From a virus: a stretch of DNA of 25,885 nucleotides. Under the pieces are notes generated by a model. That model saw only the letters and a list, made by a program, of their open reading frames with translations. It searched no databases and was not told the DNA's origin. A program made the position numbers and the translations under genes. Where the stretch lies: positions 1-25,885 of IMG/VR virus record IMGVR_UViG_3300009526_000054; one strand, 5' to 3'. Every line of letters starts with the position of its first letter. Positions within the stretch are counted from its first letter, which is position 1. Below are positions 123-5,851 of this stretch, piece after piece.

Positions 123-421
123 GGTTTAACTACTTATACCAAACCGACTTTTCTTGGTTCAAATAGTTATACCAGAGCGACTTTTCTCATGCTTTCGCGG
201 TATAACTATCTATACCAGCCCACACACGGTTCAATTATTCATACCACCCGTAGCCCTGTCGGTATAACTATCTATACCGCCCTCGGTTCAACTATCTATA
301 CCACCAGCCCAAGGCGGTATAACTATTCATGCCCGCTGATAGCCTACTGGTATAACTATATATACCAACCACGGTATAACTATCTATACCCGCTAAACCT
401 GTCGGTATAACTATTCATACC
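123..421. repeat. Array of ten 18-bp imperfect inverted repeats
   Basis: The consensus is GGTATAACTATCTATACC, two 6-bp arms GGTATA/TATACC around a 6-bp centre. Copies start at 123, 156, 199, 228, 261, 285, 316, 349, 373 and 404. Those at 199, 261 and 373 match the consensus exactly. Copies at 156, 228 and 285 have GGTTCA as left arm; the copy at 316 ends CATGCC. Spacers are short (6, 11, 13, 15 or 25 bp) and more GC-rich than the repeats. Palindromic symmetry suggests binding by a dimeric protein. Whether this is an iteron origin, a centromere-like site or an operator array cannot be told from sequence alone. Confidence 0.9.
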
Positions 422-428
422 GCCTTGG

Positions 429-464
429 CATGTAGCCAAAAGCGTCATGTAGCCAAAAGCTACA
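429..464. repeat. 15-bp direct repeat with overlapping hairpin
   Basis: CATGTAGCCAAAAGC occurs at 429-443 and 446-460, separated by two bases. The second copy runs into a 6-bp stem, TGTAGC/GCTACA with loop CAAAA (448-464). It lies directly beyond the last 18-bp repeat and may be part of the same control region. Confidence 0.6.
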
Positions 465-469
465 CACCA

Positions 470-577
470 AATATCAGGAATATCAGTCCAATATCAGCGG
501 GAAGATACGAAAGGTGGCCGCCGGAAGCCTTTAGGGGCGCAGGTTTGGCGGGTCACTATAAGAGTCCTAAATATCAG
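470..577. repeat. Four AATATCAG motifs
   Basis: AATATCAG occurs at 470-477, 479-486, 490-497 and 570-577, always in the same orientation. The first three are spaced 9 and 11 bp apart, about one helical turn, as if read by a protein from one face of the DNA. They lie between the 18-bp array and the AT-rich segment. Confidence 0.6.
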
Positions 578-680: not shown

Positions 681-731
681 TTGAAAAAGAAAATTGTAAA
701 TAGCATATATAGTCTCTACGCGCGCGTATGA
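681..731 (+). CDS. Possible 16-residue leader peptide
   Basis: A strong ribosome binding site AGGAGG (666-671) lies ahead of a TTG codon that opens a short frame, MKKKIVNSIYSLYARV. Its TGA (729-731) overlaps the ATG of the next gene as ATGA. The next gene has no ribosome binding site of its own in the GC-rich bases before its ATG, so translation through this mini-ORF could deliver ribosomes to it. A second mini-ORF of the same build precedes the large terminase gene. It may be only a coupling device with no peptide function, or the TTG may be unused. Confidence 0.35.
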   Translation: MKKKIVNSIYSLYARV

Positions 732-976
732 AACGAACCCGCTCCCAAATAAGATATGCCAACTCAAAGCTGGGGAAATACACCACTGCTAGACGGGAAG
801 CAATCCTGCGAGGAGAGACTTGGGAGTTTACTTTTGAGGAGTGGGAGCCAATGTGGTTTCGCAAATGGAAAGGGAGAGCTACTGACGGGAACAGAATGGA
901 AAGAACAGACAAGAACGGCCCATGGTCAAAAGAAAACTGTAGAATAAGACACGCCAAACAACGGAGAACAACATGA
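728..976 (+). CDS. Small HNH-like phage protein
   Basis: This 82-residue basic protein begins the packaging operon. Its C-terminal half, with TFEEW...W near residues 35-45 and then R-x-D-x-x-GPWSKENCRI near 59-75, resembles the C-terminal part of phage HNH/AP2-type endonucleases, where a D-x-x-GY-x-x-x-NCRW motif is common. The usual two halves are shortened here and no full set of HNH metal ligands is clear, so nuclease activity is uncertain. HNH proteins beside terminase genes assist DNA cleavage during packaging in HK97-like phages, which fits the position. The start overlaps the leader ORF by ATGA, and the stop overlaps the ATG of the next gene (973) in the same way. It may instead be a DNA-binding regulator. 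Confidence 0.6.
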   Translation: MKRTRSQIRYANSKLGKYTTARREAILRGETWEFTFEEWEPMWFRKWKGRATDGNRMERTDKNGPWSKENCRIRHAKQRRTT

Positions 977-2205
977 CAGAAACAGCACTGCAAATAGACT
1001 ACATCGACCCGATAACTCTCAAGCCTCATCCTGATAACGCAAAAGTGCATACAGACAAGCAAATAGACCGCGTTGCCAAATCTATGGATAACACTGGCGG
1101 GTCGGTACAGCCGATCTTGATAGATGAAAACAACACCATACTTGCTGGCCATGGCCGTTGGATGGCGCACAAAAAGCGCGGCGATATATCCTGCCCTACC
1201 ATAATGAAGCGCGGGCTTAGTGACGCTCAGAAGAAAAAGTTCTTGCTGGCTGATAACCAAACCAACGCGATGACAGGCAACGACTTTGAAGCGGTGTCTG
1301 CACTGCTAATCGGGCTAGATAGCGAGGGTGTTGAAATAGCGGATATTGGCTTTAGTGAGAAAGAGCTGGATGCTTTCTTAAATTACTCAGAAGAAGAAGC
1401 TGACGCGAAGCGGGACAAGCTGGAGGAATCTAGCGAGTCATCTTCCGGTGTCCGTGAGCTAAAGGAGAGGCTAGAGCTGCATCTTAACCAGCACGTAGGC
1501 CCGTATGATCTTCCGCCATTGATAGCTCGGAGAATACCGCATATACCGGACGATTTTGTAGTCTGGATGAATCGACACCGCACTAGCCCACTGGCCCAAG
1601 GCCAGATGTACTATCACTTGTTTGGGCGGGAATCGACCAAGGGGCTTGACCCTGCCGATGCGCTAATATCGTTCTACATTGATGACGTTAGATTTGAGCG
1701 CGTATGGACTAAACTACGCGAAAATACACAGCGTTTTATGAATGCCGAAGTAAATATGCTGGTCATGCCCGACTTTACACGGTCTACAGGCTGGCCTATG
1801 CCAAAAAACCTGTGGAACGTGTACCGGAGTTTCTATTGCGCCCTGTATTGGCAATTGGCCGGATTGGAGGTTATCCCGAATCTTATTGATTGGGATTTGG
1901 ATAGTGTGGAGGCTTGCTGTAAGCCTATCCCAGAGCGATGCCCCACGGTATCTGTTCAATTGCAAACAATAGGTGGAAGAACCATGAAAAGTGGAGATGG
2001 TTCCAAGGGTGCTGACCCCGATCTTTTTCGAGCCTGTATTGGAGCAAGTTTAGATATAATTAAGCCTGAGACTTTGTTAGTCTATGGCGGAGAGCGCGGA
2101 TTGACTTTAGGCAAGGAAATCTGTAAAAGACATAATGTGCGGTTTGTTGGTGTAGCCAATCGGGCTACCGCTGCAACTGACTTAGGCTCTGACCAAGGGT
2201 TCTAA
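973..2205 (+). CDS. ParB-domain protein fused to DUF4417
   Basis: This 410-residue protein has two parts. Residues about 8-137 form a ParB/sulfiredoxin-like domain: HPDN (19-22), ILAGHGRWMAHKKRG with GHGR at 59-62, the LADNQ motif (92-96) and a closing GFSEKELDAFL. An acidic linker (139-170) follows. Residues about 175-397 match my recollection of DUF4417, with SFYIDDVRFERVW (233-245), MPDF (265-268), WNVYRSF (281-287), YWQLAG (292-297) and VIPN (300-303). In phages the ParB domain is usually attached to a DNA methyltransferase; no methyltransferase motif is seen here. The helix-turn-helix of true partition ParB is also absent. Start: ATG with GGAGA six bases upstream. Its role may be DNA binding or nucleotide-dependent processing near packaging; the function of DUF4417 is unknown to me. 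Confidence 0.8.
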   Translation: MTETALQIDYIDPITLKPHPDNAKVHTDKQIDRVAKSMDNTGGSVQPILIDENNTILAGHGRWMAHKKRGDISCPTIMKRGLSDAQKKKFLLADNQTNAMTGNDFEAVSALLIGLDSEGVEIADIGFSEKELDAFLNYSEEEADAKRDKLEESSESSSGVRELKERLELHLNQHVGPYDLPPLIARRIPHIPDDFVVWMNRHRTSPLAQGQMYYHLFGRESTKGLDPADALISFYIDDVRFERVWTKLRENTQRFMNAEVNMLVMPDFTRSTGWPMPKNLWNVYRSFYCALYWQLAGLEVIPNLIDWDLDSVEACCKPIPERCPTVSVQLQTIGGRTMKSGDGSKGADPDLFRACIGASLDIIKPETLLVYGGERGLTLGKEICKRHNVRFVGVANRATAATDLGSDQGF

Positions 2206-2504: not shown

Positions 2505-2963
2505 GTGGGTGACAGTGTTACAAAACTCGGTCGCCCTAAAGCTGGTGACTATTCTGACCCTGCATCGGGTGAAATAAACGATGCAGGGTTAACTATTTTA
2601 AGGCGTTCGGCTGGTATGGGGCTTACTCAAAAAGAGATGGCCGCATTGATTGGCATGTCAGAACGAACCTTATATGACAGGCGCAAAGAGTTTCCCGCTA
2701 TTCAAGAGGTCATTGAGCTAGGGGAGGCGGAAGCCGGAGTCAGGGTCGCTAATGCCTTATTGCGAAGGGCGGAAGGTGGCGACATGGCCGCTATACGCTG
2801 GTACGAAATGACGCGCAAAGGTAGGCACGAAAAAGTAGATACGACTGTGGAAACCCGCAGTTATGTCATAGAAGTTCCAGCGCAACAATCGGAGGAAGCA
2901 TGGGAAAAGATAAACTCACCTGTAAGCCTTATATCCGATGACAGCACAGATTCTCCCCTTTGA
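2505..2963 (+). CDS. terS: Terminase small subunit
   Basis: This 152-residue protein recognises phage DNA and recruits the large terminase subunit to start packaging. A helix-turn-helix lies near residues 36-60 (MGLTQKEMAALIGMSERTLYDRRK, broken here as MGLTQKEMAALIG and MSERTLYDRRK), followed by a helical segment EVIELGEAEAGVRVANALLRR typical of the oligomerisation region, and a tail AAIRWYEMTRKGRHEK seen in many phage small terminases. The gene sits immediately before the large subunit. The start is GTG at 2505, five bases after the previous stop, with a weak ribosome binding site; a later start at the ATG before GLTQ would cut off about 35 residues but keep the HTH. The 3' end overlaps the large subunit gene by 26 bases. 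Confidence 0.8.
   Translation: MGDSVTKLGRPKAGDYSDPASGEINDAGLTILRRSAGMGLTQKEMAALIGMSERTLYDRRKEFPAIQEVIELGEAEAGVRVANALLRRAEGGDMAAIRWYEMTRKGRHEKVDTTVETRSYVIEVPAQQSEEAWEKINSPVSLISDDSTDSPL
2900..2941 (+). CDS. Possible 13-codon mini-ORF coupling to terL
   Basis: GGAGGA (2891-2896) stands three bases before an ATG that opens a 13-residue frame, MGKDKLTCKPYIR, whose TGA at 2939-2941 overlaps the terminase ATG as ATGA. The frame lies inside the 3' end of the small terminase gene, so for a few bases all three + frames are used. The large subunit has no ribosome binding site close to its own ATG, and a ribosome finishing this mini-ORF could restart there. The peptide itself may have no function. Confidence 0.35.
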   Translation: MGKDKLTCKPYIR

Positions 2964-4413
2964 TTCGGAAGAACCTTCTGTAACATTCGCAGCACAGGCG
3001 GGGCCACAGACGGCTTTGCTATCCTGTCCGATACAAGAAATCTTTTTTGGTGGCGCACGTGGCGGAGGCAAAACATTTGTTCTCGCGCTTGATTGGGTTA
3101 TGCACAGCGCAAAATACGGCAGTAATGCGGCGGGTGTTGTATTCCGGCAGTCCTACAAAGAACTTGAAGAAGTAGTCAAATGTTTTAAGTCGGTCACGTG
3201 GGACATTGGCGGCAGGGTCGTTGGCCAAGAATTGCGTATGCCAAATGGTGCTATCTTAAAATTCCGCCACTTGAAGCGGGAAGATGACGCAGACGATTAT
3301 CAGGGGCATCAGTATACGTGGGTAGCTTTTGACGAGGTTACGAACTGGGCAACCCCCTCGGCTATCAATAAGCTGCGAGCCTGTCTACGTAGTGCCGTTG
3401 TTCCCCCTGAAGGATTGCGTTTTCTTTTGACCGGAAACCCCGGCGGTAAAGGCCACAACTGGGTCAAGGCAAGGTACGTTGACGCTGGCCGACCCTACGA
3501 AATCATAAAGGAATATGACTCAGATTTTGACGGATATAAGAAGCGGGTATTTATCCCCTCACTATTGGCGGATAACCCTGCACTAGCTAACAATGACCCT
3601 ATGTACTTATCTCGCTTAAAGGATTCCGGCCCCGCTTGGTTAGTGAAGGCTTGGATAGAGGGCGATTGGTCAATCATTGCAGGAGGTATGTTCGATGATG
3701 TTATTGATACTAAAACGCCACACCAAGTTGGGCAGAAAGTTTGGGGCTATGGAAGCAAATGCCCGCCTTTTCGTATCCCAGAGTCGTGGCGCGTTGATAG
3801 AGCATTTGATTGGGGCAGTTCTGCACCGTTCTCAGTCGCTTGGTATGCTGAATCTGACGGTACTGAAGCATTCTCTGCTGACGGATGCCCGATAATTGTT
3901 CCACGTGGAACAGTGTTTCGCATTGCGGAATGGTACGGTTGGAATGGCCAGCCCAATACAGGGCTTAAGATGTTGTCTGAAGATGTTGCCGTTGGCATTA
4001 AAGAACGGGAAGTTTTCATTAGCAGGAATATGCTTAGTGGCCAGCAAATAAAAGCAGGGCCAGCGGATACCAGTATCTATACCGCTGAAGACGGCGTGAG
4101 TATAGGTGATAACATGGCGCGAAGGGGCGTGAAGTGGACTAGGGCCGATAAGAGGGCGGGTTCTAGGAAGAATGGTTGGGAGACTTGCCGTAGAATGTTG
4201 AAGGCGGCAGCCAAGGGTAACATTGAACACCCAGCCTTTATCTGCTTTGATACATGCTTACAGTGGTGGCGAACAGTACCCGTTGCCCCACGATGCAGTA
4301 GAGATATGGATGATTTGGATACAGCGACAGAAGACCATATAGCCGATGAGTGGAGATATAGGTTACAGAATTGCATCCGAGAGGTTAAAGTACGCAGACT
4401 GAAGGGACTATAA
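2938..4413 (+). CDS. terL: Terminase large subunit
   Basis: This is the ATP-driven packaging motor and headful or cos nuclease, 491 residues, the usual size. The N-terminal ATPase shows a Walker A motif GGARGGGKT (38-46), Walker B WVAFDE (128-133) with the catalytic glutamate, and a coupling motif LLTGNPGG (163-170). The C-terminal RNase H-like nuclease is marked by RAFDWG (288-293) with its metal-binding Asp, GPADTS (374-379), and ATEDHIADEWRY (463-474). The pattern fits the Terminase_6 type of large subunit. It begins inside the small subunit gene and seems to be translated by coupling, either to that gene or to the mini-ORF ending at 2941. Portal follows after four bases, the standard packaging order. 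Confidence 0.96.
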   Translation: MTAQILPFDSEEPSVTFAAQAGPQTALLSCPIQEIFFGGARGGGKTFVLALDWVMHSAKYGSNAAGVVFRQSYKELEEVVKCFKSVTWDIGGRVVGQELRMPNGAILKFRHLKREDDADDYQGHQYTWVAFDEVTNWATPSAINKLRACLRSAVVPPEGLRFLLTGNPGGKGHNWVKARYVDAGRPYEIIKEYDSDFDGYKKRVFIPSLLADNPALANNDPMYLSRLKDSGPAWLVKAWIEGDWSIIAGGMFDDVIDTKTPHQVGQKVWGYGSKCPPFRIPESWRVDRAFDWGSSAPFSVAWYAESDGTEAFSADGCPIIVPRGTVFRIAEWYGWNGQPNTGLKMLSEDVAVGIKEREVFISRNMLSGQQIKAGPADTSIYTAEDGVSIGDNMARRGVKWTRADKRAGSRKNGWETCRRMLKAAAKGNIEHPAFICFDTCLQWWRTVPVAPRCSRDMDDLDTATEDHIADEWRYRLQNCIREVKVRRLKGL

Positions 4414-4417
4414 GACT

Positions 4418-5851
4418 ATGACGGGCGTTACGACAGAACACGAAGAATACAGGGAATATGCCGCTGTTTGGGAAGAAATGCGCGACCATTTGAAGGGTTC
4501 TCGCGCTATAAAGCACGAAGGCACAAAATACCTCCCCATGCTAGGTGATGAGCGCGACCAAGAAGACCGTAAACTTTACGTTGGCTATTTGGAACGGGCT
4601 TTGTACTTTGAGGCGACCAAAAGAACGCGAGAGGCAATGGTAGGCGCGATGTTTATGAAGCCGCCGAGCTTCACGAACCTAGATGACAAGTACCGCGCTG
4701 ATTTCAAGCAAGTTACGATGGACGGGTATTCTATGGATACCTTCATGCGTAATGTCGTGCATGAGCTGGTGTCGGTGTCTCGAACAGGTGTTCTTGTAGA
4801 ACGCGCCAGAGAAGAAAACGGCGGGCATTTGTACTTTGTACAGTACAAGGCAGAGGACATTATCAACTGGCGATTCGAGCGTTTAGAGGATGATATTGTC
4901 CTTACCCTAGTGGTTCTTGAGGAGAAGTATTTCAAGCAGGACGGGCGATTCGAGACAGATGACAAAATTAGATTCAGGGTATTGGAGTTGATAGATGGTA
5001 TTTATGTTCAGTCGGTATTTGAATCTGCCATTGGCGATAGGGACGAAGTGTACTATGCTGAGACAGATGAGATTATTCCCGTTAATGTTGGGGAGCCACT
5101 TGATTACATACCGTTTGTTTTCTTCACGCCTTTGGGCAATGTACCTGACGTATGTGAACCCGTCCTTGGAAGCATTAGTGCTATTAATCTCAGCCATTAT
5201 CGCACTTCCGCTGATCTTGAGCATGGCCGCCATTACACTGGGTTGCCTACTGCTTGGGTTGCTGGGTTTGATACTGACCAACACTTACAACTTGGCTCTC
5301 AGGTTGCGTGGGTTAGCGAACAGGCGAATGCTAGAGCGGGATTCCTAGAGTTTACAGGTCAAGGCTTGGGTACACTGCAAATAGCATTGGCAGAGAAGCA
5401 GGAGCAAATGGCCACCATGGGCGCGAGAATGTTGCGCCCACCGAGGTCAGGAGTTGAGGCCGCAGAGACAGCGCGGATATATCAGTCTGCTGAGTCGGGA
5501 ACTTTGGGCAATCTTTCTTTGGCTGCGTCTGAGTCGTTTAGCACGTTAATCCATTACTGGTTAACGTGGCAGGGTGTCGTTGAGCATGACGTAACAATAG
5601 AGATGAACACTGATTTCATTGATTCCCGAATAGACCCAAGCTCCATCACTGCTATGCTCCAGCTCTGGATGGCTGGCGGCATTTCATACGATACTTTGTT
5701 CTACAACTTGCAGAACGGGGAAATTGTGCCGGATGGGGTAACTTCCGAGGAAGAACAGGATAAGATTGCCATGGAAGCCCCAGCACCGGAGCCGGAGCCG
5801 GAGCCTATGGAGCCGGAGCCTATGGAGCCGGACGCTGATGAACCTGAATGA
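4418..5851 (+). CDS. Portal protein, DUF4055 type
   Basis: The portal forms the dodecameric ring at the capsid vertex through which DNA enters and leaves, and docks the terminase. This 477-residue protein shows the DUF4055 pattern: EYREYAAVWEEMRDHLKGS, then HEGTKYLPML, YVGYLERALYFEATKRT and VGAMFMKPPSF in the first 90 residues, and the stretch VSVSRTGVLVERA around residue 115-130. The C-terminus is an acidic Pro-Glu tail with repeats of EPEPM caused by a tandem DNA repeat (5788-5830). Start: ATG with GAAGGGA upstream. The last bases overlap the MuF-like gene by 14 bp. Family and gene order agree, so confidence is high. Confidence 0.9.
   Translation: MTGVTTEHEEYREYAAVWEEMRDHLKGSRAIKHEGTKYLPMLGDERDQEDRKLYVGYLERALYFEATKRTREAMVGAMFMKPPSFTNLDDKYRADFKQVTMDGYSMDTFMRNVVHELVSVSRTGVLVERAREENGGHLYFVQYKAEDIINWRFERLEDDIVLTLVVLEEKYFKQDGRFETDDKIRFRVLELIDGIYVQSVFESAIGDRDEVYYAETDEIIPVNVGEPLDYIPFVFFTPLGNVPDVCEPVLGSISAINLSHYRTSADLEHGRHYTGLPTAWVAGFDTDQHLQLGSQVAWVSEQANARAGFLEFTGQGLGTLQIALAEKQEQMATMGARMLRPPRSGVEAAETARIYQSAESGTLGNLSLAASESFSTLIHYWLTWQGVVEHDVTIEMNTDFIDSRIDPSSITAMLQLWMAGGISYDTLFYNLQNGEIVPDGVTSEEEQDKIAMEAPAPEPEPEPMEPEPMEPDADEPE
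5788..5830 (+). repeat. Tandem GGAGCC-rich repeat at the portal 3' end
   Basis: The unit GGAGCCGGAGCCTAT recurs about two and a half times, giving the portal tail its Pro-Glu-Met repeats. In the frame of the following gene the same DNA is open and would read Arg-Ser-Leu-Trp repeats, but it lies before the chosen start at 5838. Confidence 0.75.

Follow-up and report, generated by a model that had tools for sequence, protein, structure and literature searches.

A non-coding array of ten imperfect 18-bp palindromes at a phage operon boundary: probable protein assembly site and possible replication origin

The iterons of phage lambda are about 18 to 19 bp long and have imperfect dyad symmetry. 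In the origins of lambda and the Stx phages, four or six iterons bound by the O protein lie beside an AT-rich tract that is needed for unwinding (PMC7466680). The origin of PLE1, a satellite of phage ICP1, contains three semi-palindromic RepA iterons of about 30 bp in a non-coding region, and PLE origins are swappable modules whose sequence varies between lineages (PMC8263062). Multicopy direct arrays are also known as phage centromeres, for instance in the extrachromosomal mycobacteriophage RedRock, whose parS loci repeat an 8-bp motif eight times in direct orientation (PMC7157519). The array that we describe here appears, to judge from its sequence, to be a cis-acting multi-dimer binding array.

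Near its left end (positions 123 to 421, plus strand), the window, i.e., the whole stretch of 25,885 bp that was analyzed (IMG/VR record IMGVR_UViG_3300009526_000054), carries ten 18-bp imperfect palindromes of the GGTWYAACTATHYATACC type. Site scanning and alignment placed their starts at positions 123, 156, 199, 228, 261, 285, 316, 349, 373, and 404. Nine of the ten match GGTATAACTATCTATACC with at most three mismatches, versus 0.02 expected from dinucleotide shuffles; the tenth copy, at 228, has more than three, and no further match at this threshold is found elsewhere in the window. Three copies are exact (sites 199, 261, and 373). In the same scan eight sites were found on the plus strand and one, site 156, on the minus strand. 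Positions 1 to 3, 6 and 7, 9 and 10, 14 and 15, and 17 and 18 are invariant in all ten sites, giving the pattern GGT..AA.TA...AT.CC, and variation is confined to positions 4, 5, 8, and 11 to 13 and, once, position 16. The original prediction, that the arms are better conserved than the center, is thus correct for the GG/CC ends but not for the center itself, where the TA is fixed too and the variable positions lie between it and the ends. Each site matches its own reverse complement at five to seven of nine positions, a symmetry that would fit a site bound by a dimer and made up of two unequal halves. With ten 18-bp sites within 299 bp, the array has the close-set copies of one site, about 17 to 22 bp long, that are typical of iteron-type origins.

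The sole open reading frame across the array (positions 189 to 410, 73 amino acids) is not open in the sister strain L009, where stops break it. Hence, the interval is non-coding, and a coding repeat was rejected. Together with the scan, the broken frame bears out the prediction of ten copies, three of them exact, in 300 gene-free bases. The accompanying idea of dimer-type binding sites is supported as well; arrays like this one in non-coding phage DNA serve in replication, partition, or regulation. Other candidates were likewise rejected. Rfam matches, which would indicate a known RNA element, are absent from the window and from L009, and L009 has no tRNA or tmRNA. A CRISPR array would have repeats of about 23 to 47 bp, unique spacers of a near-constant length of about 25 to 40 bp, and linked cas genes, whereas here the sites are 18 bp and the spacers 6 to 25 bp long, and cas genes are absent among the proteins scanned. 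Very probably, the array serves in cis as the site at which a dimeric, sequence-specific phage protein assembles.

The spacers between successive sites measure 15, 25, 11, 15, 6, 13, 15, 6, and 13 bp. Comparison of spacing and identity uncovered a higher-order period of 88 bp (positions 228 to 421, plus strand) that runs for two rounds, 228 to 315 and 316 to 403, and is followed by a closing site at 404. The exact recurrence of the spacer lengths 15/6/13 has a p of about 3.5e-4 under random spacings of 22 to 45 bp. Between the two rounds the sites are 89% identical versus 35% for the spacers, whose 12 matches in 34 positions are not above shuffles (p 0.23). Given that the sites and the 15/6/13 lengths are kept while the spacers are dissimilar, it is the sites and their spacing, not the spacer bases, that look constrained, and selection acting on both is the simplest reading. 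Helical phasing of the sites is weak, with a best fit at 10.8 bp per turn (p 0.024) and no signal at 10.5, and was set aside as evidence.

L009 is 99.5% identical to the window over 6573 aligned bases and likewise has ten array sites, with a further, outlying site at its position 242. The first 421 bp differ at 18 places (17 substitutions and one 1-bp deletion), versus seven substitutions in the remaining 6145 bp when a 6-bp indel at 5785 is left uncounted. In other words, the left 421 bp are about 40-fold more divergent than the rest, and the ten sites have been retained despite this. The divergence could reflect recombination, repeat-driven conversion, or an assembly error in the repeats. 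To the left of the array only 122 bp are available in the window and 488 bp in L009, which has terminator-like hairpins there at its positions 189 to 211 and 280 to 304; a search for a contig extending L009 leftward found none. The 6-bp length difference between the strains at window position 5785 lies in a proline/glutamate-rich repeat that ends the portal gene.

In the collections scanned, which may lack some of the records closest to the window, the array is found only in this phage and in L009. Viral contigs were scanned with the exact 18-mer, two array-type patterns, and a strict-palindrome pair pattern and yielded, besides L009, single isolated copies in L007, L008, L010, and L011 and a pair in L061. 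The latter, an unrelated phage contig, has two identical GGTATACTGTACTATACC palindromes 33 bp apart (L061:5148-5198), flanked on one side by a TerS gene and on the other by a gene that weakly matches a winged-helix repressor. The genome-contig scan for the array gave zero matches, and the phage and plasmid collections contained no similar DNA. Five viral contigs encode a protein 66 to 70% identical to the ParB/DUF4417 protein discussed below, in the same gene order as in the window (ParB/DUF4417, TerS, TerL, portal, MuF). None of them shows the array, and a repeat search in these relatives found no comparable non-coding array. They represent about four lineages, L012 and L013 being nearly the same phage. 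Four of the five contigs extend upstream of the ParB/DUF4417 gene; in the L014/L026 lineage the contig begins at this gene.

The array is located at an operon boundary. To its right lies a packaging and structural block whose genes all point rightward, and left of the boundary the relatives have replication genes that resemble those for primase, helicase, and polymerase. Right of the array there is also an 82-amino-acid open reading frame (728 to 976, plus strand) that weakly matches an HNH endonuclease family and was not seen at the corresponding place in the relatives. Its ATG at 728 overlaps the stop of a short TTG-started frame (MKKKIVNSIYSLYARV, positions 681 to 730) that lies behind AGGAGG and is possibly a leader peptide. 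Among cultured phages, of which two annotated records were examined, the best match is 50% identical for TerL and 36% for the portal protein.

For the function of the assembly site we favor, tentatively, an iteron-type replication origin, guided by the order of its parts and by its likeness to the lambda/Stx and PLE origins. Directly right of the array lie two exact copies of the 15-bp repeat CATGTAGCCAAAAGC, 17 bp apart (429 to 460, plus strand), the second of which differs in L009 by a single substitution, at window position 451. Four copies of AATATCAG follow, at 470, 479, 490, and 570 (470 to 577, plus strand). They are the only ones on the plus strand of the window, all four are kept in L009, and an 8-mer occurring four times in such a stretch has a p of 0.005 in simulations. 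Further right, at scales of 60, 100, and 150 bp alike, no duplex in the window is less stable than an AT-rich tract (556 to 718), which is a candidate for a DNA unwinding element or a promoter region. Read rightward, the order is therefore array, AATATCAG repeats, AT-rich tract. In this reading, an initiator of the phage, whose gene would lie beyond the left end of the sequenced stretch, attaches as a dimer to each near-palindrome, and the ten bound dimers, at their constrained spacing, might build a nucleoprotein complex that destabilizes the AT-rich tract 135 to 300 bp rightward, where the helicase would be loaded. We infer the dimeric nature of the binder, its identity as an initiator, and the status of the locus as an origin.

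The array resembles a lambda-type origin in that repeated sites lie next to an AT-rich tract (PMC7466680). In contrast, the four or six lambda-type sites are located inside the initiator gene, whereas here there are ten, in non-coding DNA, with another sequence and with no initiator found. That number, which exceeds the iteron count of the phage origins cited, argues against an origin. Likewise, the PLE origin shares the semi-palindromic repeats within a long non-coding region but differs in having three iterons of about 30 bp and an identified RepA. Since the window has no initiator gene, the array is not tied to any replication protein. The AT-rich tract is weak evidence for an origin because all three relative lineages checked are without the array and nevertheless have the least stable DNA of their records in the same place, the gap that precedes the ParB/DUF4417 gene. 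In L012 this gap has a terminator-like hairpin and promoter-like hexamers, and so the tract may mark an operon boundary and not an unwinding element. No DnaA-box match occurs in the first 1 kb, and no GC-skew switch was seen at the equivalent boundary in the relatives, which concerns the relatives only and does not decide for this phage. If the array is an origin, it would offer a clear experimental handle on a group of phages that has no close relatives in culture, and it would mean that one lineage acquired an origin or control array at a fixed boundary of the genome while the genes on either side stayed conserved.

The main rivals of the origin are an operator array and a centromere. Possibly, though we would not expect it, the ten sites are operators through which a repressor or activator controls either the operon of HNH, ParB, terminase, and structural genes or an early operon that runs leftward. 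Near-palindromic symmetry of dimer sites is a typical feature of operators, the rightward block downstream of the array has a start that is AT rich in the relatives too, and the GGTATACTGTACTATACC pair of L061 adjoins the gene with the weak repressor match noted above. However, for a simple operator, ten sites spread across 300 bp are many and the end of the array, more than 130 bp short of the AT-rich stretch, is far away, no consensus sigma-70 promoter is found on the plus strand across the array or the AT-rich tract, and the same gene block runs without the sites in the relatives.

It is doubtful that the array is a parS-like centromere of a phage living as a plasmid, served by a partition protein other than ParB/DUF4417 that is encoded outside the window. 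RedRock parS is a precedent for a phage genome with numerous sites in direct repeat (PMC7157519), but there an 8-bp motif is linked to parA-parB, whereas the sites here are 18-bp near-palindromes and no ParA family member was seen among the window proteins scanned. Integrase and plasmid genes were not detected among these proteins either, and the relatives lack the sites. A packaging-initiation site of the pac or cos type, recognized by TerS, is unlikely as well. An HTH-bearing TerS is encoded 2.1 kb away (2505 to 2963, plus strand), with TerL next to it (2938 to 4413, plus strand), but the relatives without the array have TerS and TerL proteins that are 47 to 51% and 66 to 69% identical, respectively.

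The original prediction had proposed the ParB/DUF4417 protein (410 amino acids; 973 to 2205, plus strand) as the array binder. Profile and similarity searches matched DUF4417 at 5e-22 and ParB_N at an E value of 7.6e-4, a match that does not reach the Pfam cut-off. Against TIGR00180, the canonical model for ParB, the score was 17.7 bits, far short of the cut-off of 58.45. In the AlphaFold model (mean pLDDT 42), whose poor quality meant that it added nothing to the argument, only the N-terminal domain, residues 10 to 95 or thereabouts, is reasonable; this domain is probably of the ParB-CTPase type. Neither HTH_ParB nor another helix-turn-helix was detected by profile search; the prediction had itself noted that no obvious helix-turn-helix is present. 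A 2025 PNAS survey lists ParB-DUF4417 among phage-enriched ParB-fold fusions of unknown function and reports consistent parA neighbors only for another fusion, with DUF3850 (PMC12704722). The fusions described there share their domain architecture with the window protein but are probably unrelated to the array; no DNA target sites for them were encountered in the literature consulted. That the ParB/DUF4417 protein binds the array is highly improbable: it has the ParB-type N-terminal domain and its gene begins close by, 550 bp to the right of the array, but a helix-turn-helix was not detected and the gene, 66 to 70% conserved at the protein level, is kept in five contigs that show no array. That leaves a tempting functional link for ParB/DUF4417 proteins without support.

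The boundary that carries the array and the HNH-like open reading frame here measures only about 200 bp in the relatives. Conceivably, but very improbably, both arrived together as a module at the border between replication and packaging genes, the array being a swappable origin and the HNH protein, comparable to origin-directed nucleases, acting in homing or competition against phages with another version of the boundary. Inspection of translations by eye revealed DNA polymerase-like open reading frames with intein-like interruptions in the relatives (L012:2727-5381 and L015:2-2557), overlapped in other frames by HNH-type open reading frames. Finally, early-region proteins of the relatives (L056:10005-10811, L056:10845-11306, and L059:7213-7992) match the gp34-like and gp33-like families of cyanophage Pam3 with E values down to 6e-59, hinting at an early module that may be common to the relatives and Pam3.
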